DNA of 23,876 nt from a virus. The stretch is taken from positions 1 to 23,876 of the IMG/VR virus record IMGVR_UViG_3300009155_000265. One strand, given 5' to 3'. A program made the position numbers and the translations under genes. The notes under the pieces were generated by a model that worked only from the letters and a program-made list of their open reading frames with translations, did no database searches and was not told the DNA's origin. Every line of letters begins with the position of its first letter. Within the stretch, counting starts at the first letter, position 1. Below, piece after piece: positions 1,800 to 23,872 of this stretch.

Positions 1800-2648
1800 T
1801 TACCACTCGAACTTACCCAAGATCGCATCGACCTTGGACTTCAAACTCTCGCGCACAGTTGCGTCTTCTTTAACTTCCTCGATGTCTGTCCCAAGCATCG
1901 CTAGTTCTACTTGCCTACGTGCATCCTCCAACTTAGGATCGTTAGTGACATTCAGTTTTGTCAAGAGGTCGCACAACTCCAACGGGTTGCTAATCAGCGA
2001 GTCGTGATACCGCTTCTTAGAATCGCCTGAGTCTTCCAGCTTCTTGGACATGGACAACAGAACTTCATGCAGGCGCTCCCATGGTGTGCGCATCGCTTCG
2101 GCCAGCTTTTCCGAATACTGTGCTTCATAGGCCAGCCGCATCTCCTCTAAGTCATTCGCAGGTATGTCTAACCGGAAGTCACCGGCCTCGGGCAATGGCT
2201 TGATGATCCAACGGAACGCAAACTTACTACGCACTTCTTCCAGTGGCGGGTAGTCCTCGGCTTTGTACAGCGAACCCAGATTTACCTGTGCGTCCCGCAC
2301 CAGAGTCTCGTACTCGTCAAAGAAGTTATCGCACAACATGTTGAACGTACGCTCGTACCCGTTCATAGTCTGCTTCGATTCCATAAACAGCTTGGTTGGC
2401 AACATGCGCTCACCCTTGTCTGCCCATGGCAACGTATGCTGATTGTTGTAAAGCCGCACTCTTGCCGCGAACTTCTCAATGTCTGCTCGTAGGCTTGTAC
2501 CCGCAAACAGATTCTTTTTAGTCTGCGATGCGTCTTTGTGTGCCGATGCGTTTGCATTGACTTGGCTCGTCACCTCCCGATCAATCTTTGATGCAGGCCA
2601 AACGCTGATGTTCAATTCCACTAACACTGCTGATGCGCTGATACTCAT
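1800..2648 (-). CDS. 282-aa protein of MoxR/VWA cluster (DUF3150-like?)
   Basis: The N-terminus (MSISASAVLVELNISVWPAS) and the later segments LRADIEKFAARVRLYNNQHT and WADKGERMLPTKLF match, from memory, a phage and bacterial family found beside MoxR ATPases and VWA proteins; I think it may be DUF3150, but cannot check. The protein is largely helical and charged, with no catalytic motif or membrane segment. TGGAG precedes the ATG at 2648. It lies two genes downstream of the DUF2201-type VWA gene and in the same operon as the AAA+ gene, so a partner or substrate-adaptor role is a reasonable inference. Confidence 0.8.
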   Translation of the reverse strand: MSISASAVLVELNISVWPASKIDREVTSQVNANASAHKDASQTKKNLFAGTSLRADIEKFAARVRLYNNQHTLPWADKGERMLPTKLFMESKQTMNGYERTFNMLCDNFFDEYETLVRDAQVNLGSLYKAEDYPPLEEVRSKFAFRWIIKPLPEAGDFRLDIPANDLEEMRLAYEAQYSEKLAEAMRTPWERLHEVLLSMSKKLEDSGDSKKRYHDSLISNPLELCDLLTKLNVTNDPKLEDARRQVELAMLGTDIEEVKEDATVRESLKSKVDAILGKFEW

Positions 2649-2666
2649 TTCAATTCTCCAGTTAAG

Positions 2667-2918
2667 TTAATCTTTAGCGGGTTTGCCCGCCAACTTTGCC
2701 ATTGCATATATGTGGTCACTGATGATGTGCATCGAGAAGTTGGATTCGTTGGGGTACACGTGGTACGTGTATGGGTTTTCCATTCCCTTCTCTCTGCGCT
2801 TCTCTTCATTCCAATACTTCTCCTCGTATACCTCTGCGGCTTGCAAGCACTCAGCTAACATCATCGCTTGCTCTTTGGGCATCACCAGCTTGCGATACCC
2901 GATATCAACTACTACCAT
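2667..2918 (-). CDS. Hypothetical protein (83 aa)
   Basis: I use the ATG at 2918 (MVVVDIGYRKLVMPKEQAMM) rather than an upstream ATG at 3005, because AGGAG stands 7 nt before it and the longer form would overlap the VWA gene heavily. The AGGAG is formed where palindrome copy 3 meets GAG. The protein has a strand-helix start, a charged helix (EEKYWNEEKRREKGME) and a C-terminal helix ending GKPAKD. I recognise no family. It is sandwiched between the VWA gene and the 282-aa gene. Confidence 0.75.
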   Translation of the reverse strand: MVVVDIGYRKLVMPKEQAMMLAECLQAAEVYEEKYWNEEKRREKGMENPYTYHVYPNESNFSMHIISDHIYAMAKLAGKPAKD

Positions 2919-2928
2919 GTGCGTACTC

Positions 2929-2942
2929 CTAACAAATGTTAT
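2929..2942. repeat. Dispersed palindrome copy 3
   Basis: CTAACAAATGTTAT, same variant as copy 2. In mRNA sense it reads ATAACATTTGTTAG plus GAG, creating AGGAG 7 nt before the 83-aa gene's ATG. Confidence 0.95.
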
Positions 2943-2958
2943 AAACAAACGATCAAAC

Positions 2959-4203
2959 TTATTCTTTAACGTGGACTGTCTTACCATTTGGCGCAATGAC
3001 ATCATTACCTCCTACGATTGCCCACAACACGGGCGCTGTCCAATCACTACCCCAATCGCTACCCACGTACCCATCCGTAAGAACGATGATGCACTCAGGC
3101 TCAATCGCTTTCGCTTTCAGGTACTCTGATACACAGGACGGTGAAGTCCCTCCGCCGCCTTTGGGCTTAGTCGAGTTGATGATGTCGCTCACCATGTTCT
3201 CGGTGTACTCCTCATGCGCGGCAACCTCACTGTCCCAATAGATCAAGTCCACTTGGCTCGGCTTAACTTCTTCTGCGATACCCCTAACTTCTGTTAGGAA
3301 CTCGGACAACTCTTCCTGACCAACAGAACCCGATGTGTCTACTGCGATAACCAGATGACCTACCTTCTCACCGATGAGACTAGGCATGTACGTACCCATA
3401 GATAAGAACCTACGGTTAACCCTACGCCATGAGGACGTATCCTTTGCATGGCATGTGGACTTCACAAACTCACGCAACATCTCACGCCAGTTGACCTTGG
3501 GTTCAAGCAAGTCAAGCAAGTCACGATCCAATCCACCTGCGTTAGTTCCCGCTATTTTTTGATGCGCCATTACACCTTGCCTGATAGCCTGATCTATCTC
3601 ACGCTCAAGCTCCTTCTTCTCTACCTCGGTCATTTCTTTGGCACCATCCCAATCGTGCTCATCGAACCCTTCACCATTCCCATCCCCATTAGTGGGAATC
3701 CCACCACTATCCCCGTCTTCACAAGGATTCCCTTTGCCTTTCTTCTGCTCCTCTTTCAGTAGGTCGAACACTTGTTTGGCGTGCATGCCGCGATACTTCT
3801 CATCTATCAGGCCCATGATCTTGCCCTTCATCTCTCCGTCCTTGAAGCGGGGCATCGCAATGACCTTCTCGCTTGGGTCAAGGTCTTTCAGCTTGAGGTT
3901 AATCACGTAGTCACAAGCGGCGTTAGCCAGCCGATGATTCTCATCGTGCAACTTCTTCCACGTAGTCAAGTGACGGAACGCCTTGTGCAGATTCTCGTGA
4001 AGCACCACGAAATTCAACTCGTTGTCTTTCAGGTCAGCAACGAACTTGCGTCCGTACTTCTCATCCCGTCCGTTAGTGCACGCAGTCGGCATGTTGTCCA
4101 CTACGCTCGTACGACCAACCATCAAGATGCCAGACCACAACGCGAACATTGGGTTACGCATCAAAGTGATCTTGGCCTTCTGAACTTTTCTTTCTTCTAA
4201 CAT
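2959..4203 (-). CDS. DUF2201-type metallopeptidase-like/VWA protein (414 aa)
   Basis: Two modules are visible. The N-terminal part has an HExxH motif, HENLH at residues 69-73, followed by RLANAACDYVINLKL at about 91-105, the arrangement of the putative metallopeptidase domain DUF2201_N. A low-complexity Gly/Asp linker spans about 155-187. The C-terminal part is a VWA-like domain with a metal ion-dependent adhesion site: DTSGS at 289-293, GGGT near 350-353 and LTDG at 375-378. Such proteins are usually paired with MoxR ATPases, and one is encoded just upstream (4822-5898). The start ATG at 4203 lies inside palindrome copy 4, with AAGGG 6 nt upstream. The substrate is unknown; whether the peptidase site is active cannot be told. 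Confidence 0.9.
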   Translation of the reverse strand: MLEERKVQKAKITLMRNPMFALWSGILMVGRTSVVDNMPTACTNGRDEKYGRKFVADLKDNELNFVVLHENLHKAFRHLTTWKKLHDENHRLANAACDYVINLKLKDLDPSEKVIAMPRFKDGEMKGKIMGLIDEKYRGMHAKQVFDLLKEEQKKGKGNPCEDGDSGGIPTNGDGNGEGFDEHDWDGAKEMTEVEKKELEREIDQAIRQGVMAHQKIAGTNAGGLDRDLLDLLEPKVNWREMLREFVKSTCHAKDTSSWRRVNRRFLSMGTYMPSLIGEKVGHLVIAVDTSGSVGQEELSEFLTEVRGIAEEVKPSQVDLIYWDSEVAAHEEYTENMVSDIINSTKPKGGGGTSPSCVSEYLKAKAIEPECIIVLTDGYVGSDWGSDWTAPVLWAIVGGNDVIAPNGKTVHVKE

Positions 4204-4210
4204 TTGTTAC
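4197..4210. repeat. Dispersed palindrome copy 4, carries a start codon
   Basis: CTAACATTTGTTAC, one mismatch at the end. In mRNA sense GTAACAAATGTTAG: its ATG (4203-4201) is the start codon of the VWA gene, with AAGGG just upstream. Confidence 0.95.
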
Positions 4211-4220
4211 CCTTCGTTGT

Positions 4221-4595
4221 TTAAAAACCACACTCAATACTTCTAACTACATGAAGCAAGCCATCGGCTTGATAGCTACGCCTCTCCTCTATGTCTTCCA
4301 CCTCCTCTCCTAGACGCACGAACTCCCAATACCATTTGTTGCCCTCGTCGGCTAACTTCTCGAACTTCTTCAACGCTTGCTCGAATCCCTGTATGTCAGA
4401 ATAGGATTCGTACCACTTCACATCTGTCAAGTAGAACTTGATACCCTGCAAGTTATCTGTCCTCTCAAACGTACTCATGAACTCTTCATCTTTGAACCAC
4501 TCGGGTATGTTCTCGTCAATGAATAACTTCATCGCAGGGAACTCATTAGGTTCGTAGGTGTAGAACACCGCCATAACATTACTTCGATAGCCCAT
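4221..4595 (-). CDS. Conserved GYRS-type hypothetical protein (124 aa)
   Basis: The protein begins MGYRSNV and contains FYLTDVKWYESYSDIQGFEQ near the middle and FVRLGEEVEDIEER near the end. This layout (N-terminal GYRS/GYRSDV, a WYESY segment, a RxGE-x-EDIE segment) is one I recall from a widespread family of small phage and bacterial proteins of unknown function. GGAGAAGGTA precedes the ATG at 4595, which overlaps the end of the 76-aa gene upstream. It lies between the MoxR and VWA genes, so it is probably co-transcribed with them. No catalytic motif is evident. Confidence 0.8.
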   Translation of the reverse strand: MGYRSNVMAVFYTYEPNEFPAMKLFIDENIPEWFKDEEFMSTFERTDNLQGIKFYLTDVKWYESYSDIQGFEQALKKFEKLADEGNKWYWEFVRLGEEVEDIEERRSYQADGLLHVVRSIECGF

Positions 4596-4809
4596 TACCT
4601 TCTCCTTCGTTTAATATGTTTGCTACCTTCTCGCACACAACCTTGTCGGTATGCTCGAACACTGTCTTCCAACCAAATGAATCGTTGTCTCGAATACAGT
4701 ACCCAAGTAGTTGTAAGTGACCAGTATCCGAATCCATCGTGGTCACCCATTGCATTAAGTAGCGGGGCTTTTTCAAGTCCCTCGCTGTTGTCCCGTTCAT
4801 TCCTAACAT
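4579..4809 (-). CDS. Hypothetical protein (76 aa)
   Basis: Contains a segment LMQWVTTMDSDTGHLQLLGY and a helical C-terminus (KVVCEKVANILNEGEG). No family recognised. The start is uncertain: the ATG at 4809 lies inside palindrome copy 5 and gives an N-terminus MLGMNG, while the ATG at 4800 has AGGA directly abutting it, which is too close to act as a ribosome binding site. The gene starts 13 nt after the MoxR gene's stop, so it may rely on translational coupling. It overlaps the next gene by 17 nt. Confidence 0.65.
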   Translation of the reverse strand: MLGMNGTTARDLKKPRYLMQWVTTMDSDTGHLQLLGYCIRDNDSFGWKTVFEHTDKVVCEKVANILNEGEGNGLSK

Positions 4810-4816
4810 TTGTTAG
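4803..4816. repeat. Dispersed palindrome copy 5
   Basis: CTAACATTTGTTAG, perfect match to the consensus. It lies in the short gap between the MoxR gene and the 76-aa gene, and its ATG (4809) is a possible start codon of the latter. Confidence 0.95.
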
Positions 4817-4821
4817 ATGTA

Positions 4822-5898
4822 TCAGAGCAGGTCTTGGTTCTTAACAACCCAAGCCTTGAACGCACTGCTGTGGAAAGCAACCTGTTGCTTAGCGGGATTC
4901 TTCGCAATGTTGATAGCGAACACGGCTTGCCACTCGGCATCGAATCTCTCCAAGTACTCCATGAACGGACTGATAGTCTCTTTGGTGATACGCGCAATCG
5001 CACCGAACACCACAATGGCGCATGCACCTGAGCTTGTCGGTACCTTCGTATTCTTAGGGTCTTTTACCGTTGCTTCCCATGTCGGCAATTGATCTGAGAA
5101 CTCGATGTACGCTTGCATATCACGCGCACCGGATTCACCAATCGCACCTGTCAATGCGGCAATCACCGAATCAGGGTCGTTGTCTTTGCGTGTACCCACG
5201 ATGTTGCTCGCTGTCTCCAATGAGCGTGGGGATACGAAAGCATGCTGAGTTTTACGGGGGTTGTAAATGTAGGGGTTGTCACCTTGCGCCGCATCGGTAT
5301 AGCTTGCCAATACTTGCGGGAAACGATTCACCCATGCAATTACCTCTGGCTCAAGACCCTTAGCGATAGCCCACTCGATCCACTGCTCGGCATCGGGCTT
5401 CGCAATCGTCACCGGTACAAGTCGGTTACGGCTATGTGCTTTGAGGGAGTCGCCTACCCCGTCGGTCGTTAGATTACCTGTGAGAAACACGATAGTCGGT
5501 GGGTTGTTTGGCTCGTTCAATGCTATGTCACCGAGTCGCGGGTTTGCCTTCTCAAGCATGGGGTGCAGCATGTTCTTAACTGGGTCGGCACCCTTGGTGA
5601 ACTCGTCAAGCATGATGACCAACGGCTTCTTCTCATGAATCTTGAATCGTGCATTGGGATAATAGCGTGTGGTCTTGGTGTCGTGGTCGATCACAGGCAT
5701 TGCGATGTCGCCCAAGTCCATGTTGGGTACGTCAATATACGCATGCTCGTATCCAAGGGAGTTGGCAATACTCTCCAACAGGGAAGACTTACCGATGCCG
5801 GGCTCGCCTTGTAACAGGAAGCGGGTCGTTGGGTTTGTGCGGATAAGGTTAGCCGCTTGCTTGAGCGTGATGCTCTTACCAAAATTGATTTCAGCCAT
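4822..5898 (-). CDS. MoxR-type AAA+ ATPase (358 aa)
   Basis: A complete AAA+ core is visible: Walker A GEPGIGKSS at residues 31-39, Walker B VIMLDE at 94-99, sensor 1 TGN at 140-142 and candidate arginine-finger residues in HSRNRLVPV at about 155-163. The order and the residues around Walker B (LDEFTKG) fit the MoxR/CobS class, which remodels or activates partner proteins using ATP. The partner is probably the VWA/metallopeptidase-like protein encoded three genes downstream. AGAAGGAACC lies upstream of the ATG at 5898. The gene is first after promoter P2 (6030-6058), about 125 nt from the predicted transcription start, with palindrome copy 6 in the leader. Its biological role in phage infection is not known. 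Confidence 0.92.
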   Translation of the reverse strand: MAEINFGKSITLKQAANLIRTNPTTRFLLQGEPGIGKSSLLESIANSLGYEHAYIDVPNMDLGDIAMPVIDHDTKTTRYYPNARFKIHEKKPLVIMLDEFTKGADPVKNMLHPMLEKANPRLGDIALNEPNNPPTIVFLTGNLTTDGVGDSLKAHSRNRLVPVTIAKPDAEQWIEWAIAKGLEPEVIAWVNRFPQVLASYTDAAQGDNPYIYNPRKTQHAFVSPRSLETASNIVGTRKDNDPDSVIAALTGAIGESGARDMQAYIEFSDQLPTWEATVKDPKNTKVPTSSGACAIVVFGAIARITKETISPFMEYLERFDAEWQAVFAINIAKNPAKQQVAFHSSAFKAWVVKNQDLL

Positions 5899-6029: not shown

Positions 6030-6058
6030 ATTATACCACAATGTTATGGGTATGTCAA
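6030..6058 (-). promoter_or_regulatory. Leftward sigma70 promoter P2
   Basis: On the minus strand a perfect -35 TTGACA (6058-6053) and a perfect -10 TATAAT (6035-6030) are separated by exactly 17 bp. It precedes the MoxR gene and lies in a non-coding gap. The surrounding 41 bp (6025-6065) matches promoter P1 at 8082-8122 in 38 positions. Confidence 0.85.
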
Positions 6059-8086: not shown

Positions 8087-8115
8087 ATTATACCACAAAG
8101 TTATAGATATGTCAA
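8087..8115 (-). promoter_or_regulatory. Leftward sigma70 promoter P1
   Basis: On the minus strand a perfect TTGACA (8115-8110) and a perfect TATAAT (8092-8087) are 17 bp apart. It heads the run of genes from 7982 leftward. It is almost identical to P2 over 41 bp. Confidence 0.85.
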
Positions 8116-8506: not shown

Positions 8507-8550
8507 ACCCTGCCCCCGCACAGAGAACTGGTGCATGGAAAAGTTCTCAG
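8507..8550. repeat. 44-bp direct repeat, copy A
   Basis: Identical to 8619-8662 except one base (T versus G at position 8535). It contains the inverted repeat GAGAACT (8523-8529) / AGTTCTC (8542-8548) and the pair GCAC/GTGC, so alternative foldings exist. The change in copy A breaks the CCCTGC/GCAGGG pairing present in copy B. Confidence 0.85.
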
Positions 8551-8618: not shown

Positions 8619-8662
8619 ACCCTGCCCCCGCACAGAGAACTGGTGCAGGGAAAAGTTCTCAG
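8619..8662. repeat. 44-bp direct repeat, copy B
   Basis: Second copy, 112 bp after the first. The arms CCCTGC (8620-8625) and GCAGGG (8645-8650) are complementary, and the GAGAACT/AGTTCTC hairpin is conserved. Coding is unlikely because no frame with a start and ribosome binding site spans it. Confidence 0.85.
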
Positions 8663-8817: not shown

Positions 8818-9363
8818 TTACTTCTTAGCGTCGTATGCTTCACCGACCAAAACAAAATAATTGTTCTTAAGGTTGTCAAGGATAGTGCTAGCATGGCAAT
8901 CTCCACCTTCTGATTCAACCTTTTCAATCCGGTTAATCATTGTCTTAAGTTCTGTTGCTGTTTTTGCGTCAACGTCAGTTGAACCGGAAACCTTACCATT
9001 GGCCACAAAACCGCTAGCTTCTTTTACACGTGCCCAATATGTGTCTACTGTTGCCGTAGGCTTACGCTGAAGGTTTCCATTGGCGTCAACAATGGACGAC
9101 TTAATAAACTTTGGGCTTTTATCCATCATTGCATTAACGAACTTGGCACGTTCGTCTTTAATACCCTTAGCGTCTTTGCCCTTCAAGTCAAACCATGCGG
9201 CAATGGTTTTGCCTTCGGTATCCTTGCGGTTAAAAACCTCACACAATACCTTCGCATACGATGCAATGAGGTCACCAGTCTTTGTGACTTCACCGACTAA
9301 TGCGGCACGTGCATTGTCCAAGATGGAAGAATCGAATTCACCGACTGTAATAACGTTTGACAT
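8818..9363 (-). CDS. Hypothetical early protein (181 aa), sole gene of its transcript
   Basis: Starts MSNVITVGEFDSSILDNARA and ends VLVGEAYDAKK. The middle is charged and mostly helical (FDLKGKDAKGIKDERAKFVN), followed by a likely linker and a further helical part (TATELKTMINRIEKVESEGG). AGAAGG precedes the ATG at 9363 by 7 nt. It has its own promoter (P3) upstream and a terminator plus hairpin downstream, so it appears to be a separate single-gene unit, unlike the other leftward genes. I recognise no family. Being strongly flanked by signals, it is probably highly expressed early. Confidence 0.85.
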   Translation of the reverse strand: MSNVITVGEFDSSILDNARAALVGEVTKTGDLIASYAKVLCEVFNRKDTEGKTIAAWFDLKGKDAKGIKDERAKFVNAMMDKSPKFIKSSIVDANGNLQRKPTATVDTYWARVKEASGFVANGKVSGSTDVDAKTATELKTMINRIEKVESEGGDCHASTILDNLKNNYFVLVGEAYDAKK

Positions 9364-20246: not shown

Positions 20247-20507
20247 ATGGACGCAAATCTTATATGGACAGCCGGGCTGTCAATCATCATGGGTATATTT
20301 GGGTTTTTTATCCGAGAGAAACTTGGACAGGTCAAAGACATCAGTGAAGATGCCAAACGCATTGAGCGTCTCATTAACATCACACGCGAGGAGATTGCCC
20401 GTGATAACGTTACTCAAACAGAAATTCAACGAATTACTGACCACATTGACCAACGCTTTAACAAGCTTGAAGCAAAAATTGACCAGCTTATTCAAGCGGG
20501 GCGATGA
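20247..20507 (+). CDS. Single-span membrane/coiled-coil protein (86 aa), possible holin or lysis helper
   Basis: Residues 5-22 (LIWTAGLSIIMGIFGFFI) form one hydrophobic span with the N-terminus probably outside, followed by a charged coiled coil (EDAKRIERLINITREEIARD, later IQRITDHIDQRFNKLEAKID). This topology resembles small phage membrane proteins with a cytoplasmic coiled coil; a holin-like or anti-holin role is possible, but no lysin gene is next to it. A 4-nt ATGA overlap links it to the following gene. Confidence 0.65.
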   Translation: MDANLIWTAGLSIIMGIFGFFIREKLGQVKDISEDAKRIERLINITREEIARDNVTQTEIQRITDHIDQRFNKLEAKIDQLIQAGR

Positions 20508-21088
20508 TGCCAAGTAGCTCAAAGAAACAACACAATTTTATGGCGGCAATTGCGCATAACCCCGCATTTGCCAAGAAAGTAGGAATTCCGCAAAGCGTTG
20601 GGAAAGATTTTGACGAAGCGGATAAAGGCAAGAAGTTTGGTTCTGGTGGGATGGCCCGCCCCGACCTTCAAAAGATTAACAAACCCAAGACACTTCATGG
20701 CAAGATGTCAATCATGAAAGAAGGCGGTAATACTATGGCTACAAAAGGCGTAAACCCATTTGCTAAGTTTGAAAAATCAGGCAAAGACATGGAAAAAAAG
20801 GGCATGAAAGAGGGCTCCAAAATGGAAATGGTCATGGATAAAAAACAGATGATGGGCATGAAAAAGGGTGGCATGGCCGAAGGCGGCAAAGCTGATATGG
20901 CCCAAGACAAAGCCATGATTAAAAAAGCTTTCAAGCAGCACGATATGCAAGAGCATAAAGGCGGCAAGGGCACTGAATTGAAGCTAAAAAAGGGCGGTGC
21001 ATTCCGTTCTTCGGCTAACGGTGTTGCTACCAAAGGCAAAACCAAAGGCACAATGGTTAAGATGAACATGGGCGGCAAAGCCTGCTAA
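20504..21088 (+). CDS. Met/Lys/Gly-rich virion-module protein (194 aa), possibly two fused parts
   Basis: The N-terminal segment SSKKQHNFMAAIAHNPAFAK with VGIPQSVGKDF is a short module I recall from other phage proteins. From about residue 77 (MATKGVNPFAKFEKSGK) the sequence looks like a second small basic protein; the internal ATG at 20732 has a GGCGG stretch upstream and could be a second start. The C-terminal tag VATKGKTKGTMV...GGKAC is shared with the next gene. No enzyme motif. A DNA-binding or internal virion role is only suggested by the charge. Confidence 0.7.
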   Translation: MMPSSSKKQHNFMAAIAHNPAFAKKVGIPQSVGKDFDEADKGKKFGSGGMARPDLQKINKPKTLHGKMSIMKEGGNTMATKGVNPFAKFEKSGKDMEKKGMKEGSKMEMVMDKKQMMGMKKGGMAEGGKADMAQDKAMIKKAFKQHDMQEHKGGKGTELKLKKGGAFRSSANGVATKGKTKGTMVKMNMGGKAC

Positions 21089-21097
21089 GGAGCAATC

Positions 21098-21346
21098 ATG
21101 GCCGAGATCGAATACAAAACCCCTGAAGATGTGCGCGACGATAAGATGCGGATGAAGGCTGATAAAGCCTACGCCAAGTCTTTACGCAATACGGAAGAAG
21201 CTCCAGCCAAAGACCCCCGCGATGCTGTTCGTGGGCAACGTGGTTACGCTAAAGGCGGCTCAGCATCTAGCCGTGCTGATGGTTGCTGTACTAAGGGTAA
21301 GACCAAAGGCACAATGGTCACCATGAAAAATGGTGGTATGTGCTGA
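21098..21346 (+). CDS. Small basic protein with shared C-terminal tag (82 aa)
   Basis: Starts MAEIEYKTPEDVRDDKMRMK with an acidic/basic helix, then a Gly-rich linker and the C-terminal RADGCCTKGKTKGTMV followed by TMKNGGMC. This tag closely matches the end of the preceding protein and related motifs at 23412 and 23603. AAGGAG precedes the ATG. Role unknown. Confidence 0.75.
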   Translation: MAEIEYKTPEDVRDDKMRMKADKAYAKSLRNTEEAPAKDPRDAVRGQRGYAKGGSASSRADGCCTKGKTKGTMVTMKNGGMC

Positions 21347-23411: not shown

Positions 23412-23600
23412 ATGACATACAAACGCGCAGCAGATGGCATTACCCAAAAGGGTAAAACTGAAGGTACAAACTTGGGTAATGATGGCCCAACAGTATCTAG
23501 CCTTAAAGGTGGCAAGGGCGGCAAAGGCGGTAAAACCGATGCTGATATGAAATCAATGGGCCGTAATTTGGCCAAAGTTGCAGCACAAAAGCGAGGTTAA
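23412..23600 (+). CDS. Small basic Gly-rich protein with ADG motif (62 aa)
   Basis: Begins MTYKRAADGITQKGKTEGTN, related to the R-A-D-G...TKGKTKGT tag at the ends of the proteins at 20504 and 21098. A GGKGGKGGK linker and a helical end (ADMKSMGRNLAKVAAQKRG) follow. AGGAG lies 7 nt before the ATG. Unknown function. Confidence 0.75.
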   Translation: MTYKRAADGITQKGKTEGTNLGNDGPTVSSLKGGKGGKGGKTDADMKSMGRNLAKVAAQKRG

Positions 23601-23602
23601 TT

Positions 23603-23872
23603 ATGGCTACATTTAGCAAAAAAATGATGGGTAAAGAAGTGGGTAGTGCTTCAACTTACGCTAAGCCACACACAATGGATGGTAAACCTCTCAAGGCTGC
23701 AAAAGTCGTAGACCCAAACACTTTGTCTGCCAAGTCAGTCAACCCCTACACTCCAGCGATGCGCGTAAGCGCAGGCGACCCCGGTGCTGATGATGTTAAG
23801 ACTAGCGGTATCAAAATGCGCGGCACTGGTTGCGCTACTAAAGGTCTGATGTCACGAGGCCCAATGGCATGA
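23603..23872 (+). CDS. Basic protein with tag-like C-terminus (89 aa)
   Basis: Starts MATFSKKMMGKEVGSASTYA, continues with VVDPNTLSAKSVNPYTP and ends SGIKMRGTGCATKGLMSRGP plus MA, where GTGCATKG resembles the tag of the neighbouring small proteins. The gene is complete; its stop is at 23870-23872. The ribosome binding site is AGGTT-like and weak. Unknown function. Confidence 0.7.
   Translation: MATFSKKMMGKEVGSASTYAKPHTMDGKPLKAAKVVDPNTLSAKSVNPYTPAMRVSAGDPGADDVKTSGIKMRGTGCATKGLMSRGPMA

Follow-up and report, generated by a model that had tools for sequence, protein, structure and literature searches.

The window analysed here is a contig of 23.9 kb from an uncultured tailed phage (IMGVR_UViG_3300009155_000265), organised in two arms of opposite strand. 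The structural arm, on the plus strand (9.8–23.9 kb), carries the terminase, portal and major head protein genes; several of the small basic glycine-rich proteins encoded there (20504–21346 and 23412–23872) have a motif like DGxxTKGKTKGTMV. The left part is an operon of early-type genes on the minus strand, in which the initial annotation had placed a MoxR ATPase, a metallopeptidase/VWA protein and a companion of 282 residues. All three reading frames are open on that strand and encode, respectively, a 358-residue AAA+ ATPase of the MoxR-like/AAA_5 (dynein-related, midasin-like) type, P0006 (4822–5898), a 414-residue fusion of a putative DUF2201_N metallopeptidase with a VWA domain, P0003 (2959–4203), and a 282-residue protein placed here in the DUF3150 superfamily, P0001 (1800–2648). 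The observation was right but understated; a fourth conserved gene of the module, absent from that annotation, lies at 919–1776 on the same strand and encodes P7, a fast-evolving protein of 285 residues. An Rfam search gave no match.

P0006 was recognised through Pfam AAA_5 (6e-7, 30 bits against a cutoff of 22), Pfam AAA (1e-6) and PHROG 1297, labelled 'ATPase' (9e-46). Walker A K37, Walker B D98/E99, sensor-1 N142, the Arg finger R159 and sensor-2 R225 are invariant among relatives, and among solved structures midasin comes closest in sequence (1e-5). The AAA_5 match and the invariant motifs would place P0006 in the helix-2-insert AAA+ clade (AAA_5, midasin, MoxR-like), and in this sense the earlier description of a MoxR-type ATPase stands. 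A strict MoxR assignment through AAA_3, the MoxR Pfam model, does not seem warranted, as P0006 itself gives no match to it and none of 31 ATPase family members does at 0.01, while AAA_5 matches 29 of them. PADLOC matches of P0006 to mad8 and IetA cover the P-loop only, and were therefore not taken as membership of a defence system.

Both the HENLH motif and the complete VWA metal site announced for P0003 have their residues intact. In line with the DUF2201 family that had been suspected, the protein scores above the gathering threshold for PF13203 (DUF2201_N; 6e-28, 98.6 bits, cutoff 23.2) and for PF09967 (DUF2201; 4e-19, 69.5 bits, cutoff 26.4). HENLH occupies residues 69–73, and H69, E70 and H73 are identical in all 125 aligned relatives of the clade; among the sequences alignable at HExxH, the motif is also intact in 6/6 other phages and 7/7 plasmids. 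D98 and N102 are kept among relatives and H78 mostly so; the candidate third ligand is D98, or else H78. The MIDAS residues D289, S291, S293, T353 and D377 are kept in 128/128 relatives, and across 222 aligned proteins the MIDAS is intact save for one S in place of T. In bacterial relatives (n=80), H69 is lost in 9 and E70 in 15, with the MIDAS kept. The relatives of P0003 measure 391–427 residues with a constant architecture, and matches to the VWA protein are present in 773 phage records.

The predicted model of P0003 (pLDDT 82) contains a VWA fold at residues 280–414 (best Z 12.6, MDN1-MIDAS being among the matches). The assignment of HENLH to a peptidase thus has strong support on the sequence side, from Pfam and from residue invariance, and the helices and strands predicted around the motif are confident; the fold-search matches cover the VWA domain only, VWA proteins filling the match list. 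A pore 'finger' like that of NorD cannot readily be seen in the modelled VWA domain, and the conserved segment 255–278 is of low confidence. The label 'HNH endonuclease' given by PHROG 1314 was rejected, because Pfam finds DUF2201_N together with VWA and it is the HExxH and MIDAS residues that are invariant; this mislabel has been copied onto many phage records.

The 282-residue companion turned out to be a homologue of proteins labelled DUF3150. P0001 aligns over its full length with a protein of phage MinM2 annotated as DUF3150 (1e-23), and the profile of its family finds annotated DUF3150 plasmid proteins (5e-47 and 6e-28). Two of 42 family members match PF11348 at 1e-4, and P0001 itself has no direct Pfam match, PF11348 giving no hit even at E 10; its placement in the DUF3150 superfamily is therefore drawn from the links of its family. 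The predicted model (pLDDT 83) consists chiefly of long helices, and a fold search against solved structures found nothing at E 0.001 or better. Matches from a second look, with Z up to 8.1, were set aside as generic helical bundles, being under the 13 advised for helical models. A profile search of genome contigs with the DUF3150 alignment returned no matches, although a VWA-based scan did, and DUF3150 is not discussed in the literature searched.

The conservation of the module was followed in a first sample of 80 IMG/VR loci found via the VWA protein (81 with the window's own) and in a second sample of viral loci found via a DUF3150 relative. In both, wherever the contig reaches, the order AAA-VWA-DUF3150-P7 is kept on one strand, amounting to approximately 130 related viral loci overall. 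Conserved co-occurrence in related phages, on which the initial annotation depended, is thus present. Over 85 loci the identities of the ATPase, VWA and DUF3150 proteins covary (r 0.90–0.91; 0.68–0.78 with P7), a correlation which shared phage ancestry alone would also yield. P7 follows the DUF3150 gene in 79 of the 81 loci, the window's included, and was seen in the second sample too. Its median pairwise identity is 0.26, against 0.64–0.72 for the other three proteins, and it has a conserved C-terminal domain of about 60 residues (LP..R..LGMLKLVE...VGxR..xF). In distant relatives (L128:6833–7790) this domain occurs in two short proteins rather than one long one, which suggests that it is a separable module. 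A comparison of P0007 with solved structures by sequence yielded weak survivin-like helix matches (E 0.005), judged to be chance coiled coil.

The small proteins that the initial annotation had noted between the module genes are present, but they are not constant occupants among the 81 loci. On the minus strand, p112 (2667–3005), between the VWA and DUF3150 genes, is found in 59 loci, p124 (4221–4595) in 37 with varying position, and p76 (4579–4809) in 31. These small ORFs are movable insertions, since in compact relatives (L126, L133–L139) the four module genes abut without them; p112, for example, has no counterpart in such operons.

Directly upstream of the ATPase gene, at 6058–6030 on the minus strand, lies an extended -10 sigma-70 promoter (TTGACA-N17-TATAAT, with TG before the -10) matching in 12/12 positions. 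In 57/87 relatives, a promoter scoring at least 11/12 is found within 600 bp 5' of the ATPase gene. The strong early-type promoter claimed previously is therefore real as far as its sequence goes, and is kept in relatives. A second perfect TTGACA-N17-TATAAT with TG is found at 8087–8115 on the minus strand, upstream of small early genes. The early arm also contains a 14-bp palindrome, CTAACANNTGTTAG, with 10 exact copies and 5 more with one mismatch between 909 and 9512 (0.04 by chance); it is confined to this arm and is also common in relatives. Read on the minus strand as cTAAcaaATGttag, it includes, at 909, 4197 and 4803, the start codon of the gene that follows, and the copy at 909 also holds the stop codon of the previous gene. 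Between the early arm and the gene at 8818–9363 there is a 44-nt direct repeat (8507–8550 and 8619–8662, 98% identical), possibly an origin or a regulatory RNA.

The question of whether the module is optional was answered by a third sample, drawn by terminase (best 80 matches, 79–94% identity) and counted where at least 7 kb lay beside this gene. The ATPase was found in 21/21 such loci and the VWA gene in 20/21, the exception ending inside the module; two loci with 5.5–6.0 kb of flank and no module seen were too short to judge and fall outside the count. Since the ATPase stands at the same place in all 21, the module is a core feature of this phage clade with a fixed position. In 8/8 near-complete relatives (59–67 kb), the DUF3150 gene is followed, 3–9 kb downstream, by a same-strand gene for DNA polymerase A; in those eight the terminase is on the opposite strand and the structural genes are divergent. 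No DnaB-type helicase was found in relatives. In a quick VWA tree (midpoint root, long branches), the window clade forms one supported group (SH-aLRT 100).

Outside this clade, N4, VBP47, phiFa and Rhizobium phages carry the AAA/VWA-metallopeptidase pair. The N4 proteins gp24 and gp25 are homologous to the module pair (profile E 2e-30 and 1e-39), and are encoded by middle genes that belong to the Schitoviridae core (PMC4193335, PMC7650795). No match to DUF3150 or P7 was found near the pairs of N4 or Rhizobium TM3, so not every such pair requires these partners. As possible equivalents of DUF3150 or P7, N4 gp30 and the TM3 gene after its metallopeptidase were tried and gave no match, nor did MinM2_64 as P7 or a 270-residue Spiribacter gene. 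The trio AAA-DUF3150-VWA is present in Synechococcus phage MinM2, in 14/80 bacterial contigs and on Burkholderiales and Rhodovastum plasmids. A DUF3150 relative was found in 42 plasmid records, and in 6 of the 9 plasmids opened the trio was confirmed by profile. On conjugative plasmids its neighbours are PRTRC, T4SS or primase genes (in those of B. anthina and P. graminis it has PRTRC genes on one side and type IV secretion genes on the other), and in Pseudovibrio a gene for the DNA polymerase III beta clamp adjoins it. In the VWA tree, MinM2 clusters with the trios of plasmids and chromosomes, apart from the window clade.

These distributions bear on the role already proposed in print, in jumbo phages, for this combination of AAA and metallopeptidase-VWA proteins, namely virion assembly (PMC7824862), for which that paper cites p618/p892 of Acidianus two-tailed virus as a precedent; the pair would help to fold or process structural proteins as a chaperone or protease. 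In the window, the module sits in the early arm behind a host-type promoter, divergent from the terminase and head genes, and the N4 homologues are middle genes whose products are missing from the LIT1 and RPP1 virion protein lists. Moreover, the trio is found on conjugative plasmids, which form no virion, and this speaks against a role in virion assembly alone. Taken together, the early position, the core status and the copies on plasmids make virion assembly less likely here, and we regard it as quite unlikely.

A second possibility is counter-defence or host takeover, the machine taking apart or cleaving a host defence or metabolic complex. The early-type promoter, the fast evolution of P7 and the sharing of the system by phages and conjugative plasmids, both of which face host defences, would all agree with it. 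In addition, in Spiribacter salilacus (L146:340–17077) a window-clade AAA+VWA pair lies inside a defence island with DrmA and DrmB (DISARM), a GajB-like helicase and HEC-05/GmrSD genes. Nevertheless, counter-defence genes are usually patchy, while the module occupies one fixed place in all relatives that could be judged (21/21), more in keeping with a basic function than with a facultative counter-defence gene. This core conservation, together with the high conservation of the ATPase, VWA and DUF3150 proteins and the lack of any PADLOC match for P0001 or P0003, weighs against counter-defence, which we consider unlikely.

The same core conservation also speaks against a module carried by the phage for defence or superinfection exclusion, as in the VMAP/iSTAND MoxR-vWA ternary conflict systems. 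The plan of MoxR, vWA and a third protein is indeed the same (PMC7159879), and iSTAND systems have peptidases fused to vWA (PMC12839542). Nevertheless, P0001 and P0007 gave no match to a VMAP or iSTAND third component among the general models of Pfam and PADLOC, and the variable effector domains fused to vWA in those systems find no parallel in P0003, a 414-residue protein of constant architecture, where effector domains are not swapped. This explanation appears highly improbable.

The reading we prefer, to which we give an even chance, is that the four genes form one early ATP-driven remodelling machine coupled to a zinc peptidase, its target being a complex, of host or phage, around replication. 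Host RNA polymerase would make the module early, given the conserved promoter, and in relatives the module stands at the front of an operon leading to DNA polymerase. By analogy with its family, the AAA+ protein would form a hexameric ring. On this ring the VWA domain would dock and grip the target through its MIDAS metal, as in NorQ/NorD and midasin, the former showing how MoxR-VWA pairs work (PMC13036017, PMC9976466). The N-terminal zinc-peptidase domain, with its invariant HExxH, may clip what the ring pulls or stay poised on it. The helical DUF3150 protein could act as a scaffold between ATPase/VWA and target, and fast-evolving P7 as the adaptor choosing that target. Most likely, a host or phage protein complex would be remodelled to start or sustain the element's replication, for which the position near replication genes gives an association only. 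Against this reading stand the missing AAA_3 match of P0006, the NorD-like finger that is not readily seen in the model, the low confidence of segment 255–278, and the pairs of N4 and Rhizobium TM3 with neither DUF3150 nor P7 found nearby.

An alternative use of the same parts would be cofactor or metal insertion, with a NorQ/NorD- or CobS/CobT-like machine maturing one phage metalloenzyme, and the best-studied MoxR-VWA pairs do insert metals (PMC13036017). This would leave the invariant HExxH peptidase unexplained, and no co-conserved client metalloenzyme gene was found in an unsystematic search; we hold metal insertion to be very unlikely. For the remodelling machine, a more specific and more tentative proposal, with rather less than an even chance, is that of a hitherto undescribed mobile-element AAA+/DUF2201 metallopeptidase-VWA/DUF3150 remodelling protease, common to lytic phages and conjugative plasmids and belonging to the core of a large phage clade, in which P7 is the target adaptor for an establishment or replication step. 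As to the initial annotation, the MoxR-type ATPase, metallopeptidase/VWA partner and companion that it described for the phage are co-conserved and, judging from the promoter sequence, probably expressed early.

The AAA/VWA-metallopeptidase pair itself was already known from phages, with no experimental function found in the literature searched, whereas its DUF3150 and P7 partners appear undescribed. Conserved partners, early-type promoter and plasmid copies shift the likely answer from virion assembly towards an early task that phages and plasmids share, and the module offers a defined four-protein set for purification and knock-out.

Among known systems, RavA/ViaA, NorQ/NorD and midasin resemble the window in combining an AAA+ ring with a VWA MIDAS partner or domain; to our knowledge, none of them has a peptidase domain or a DUF3150 partner. 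VMAP and iSTAND are likewise three-part MoxR-vWA systems (Kaur et al. 2020, PMC7159879; PMC12839542), but their third components appear to be other ones, and the window module shows no diversification of effectors. N4 gp24/gp25 are homologous to the window pair, likewise core, and expressed as middle genes; they differ in that no DUF3150 or P7 match was found nearby. MinM2 and the Burkholderiales conjugative plasmids share the three families, adjacent or close, but in the order AAA-DUF3150-VWA instead of AAA-VWA-DUF3150, without P7 and on a separate branch of the VWA tree. Finally, group 2.2 jumbo phages also have an AAA+ gene adjacent to one for a vWA protein with an N-terminal metallopeptidase domain (Iyer et al. 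2021, PMC7824862); to that pair, proposed for virion assembly, the window adds two partners and an early-type promoter and, unlike the pair described there, its module is placed ahead of the DNA polymerase.
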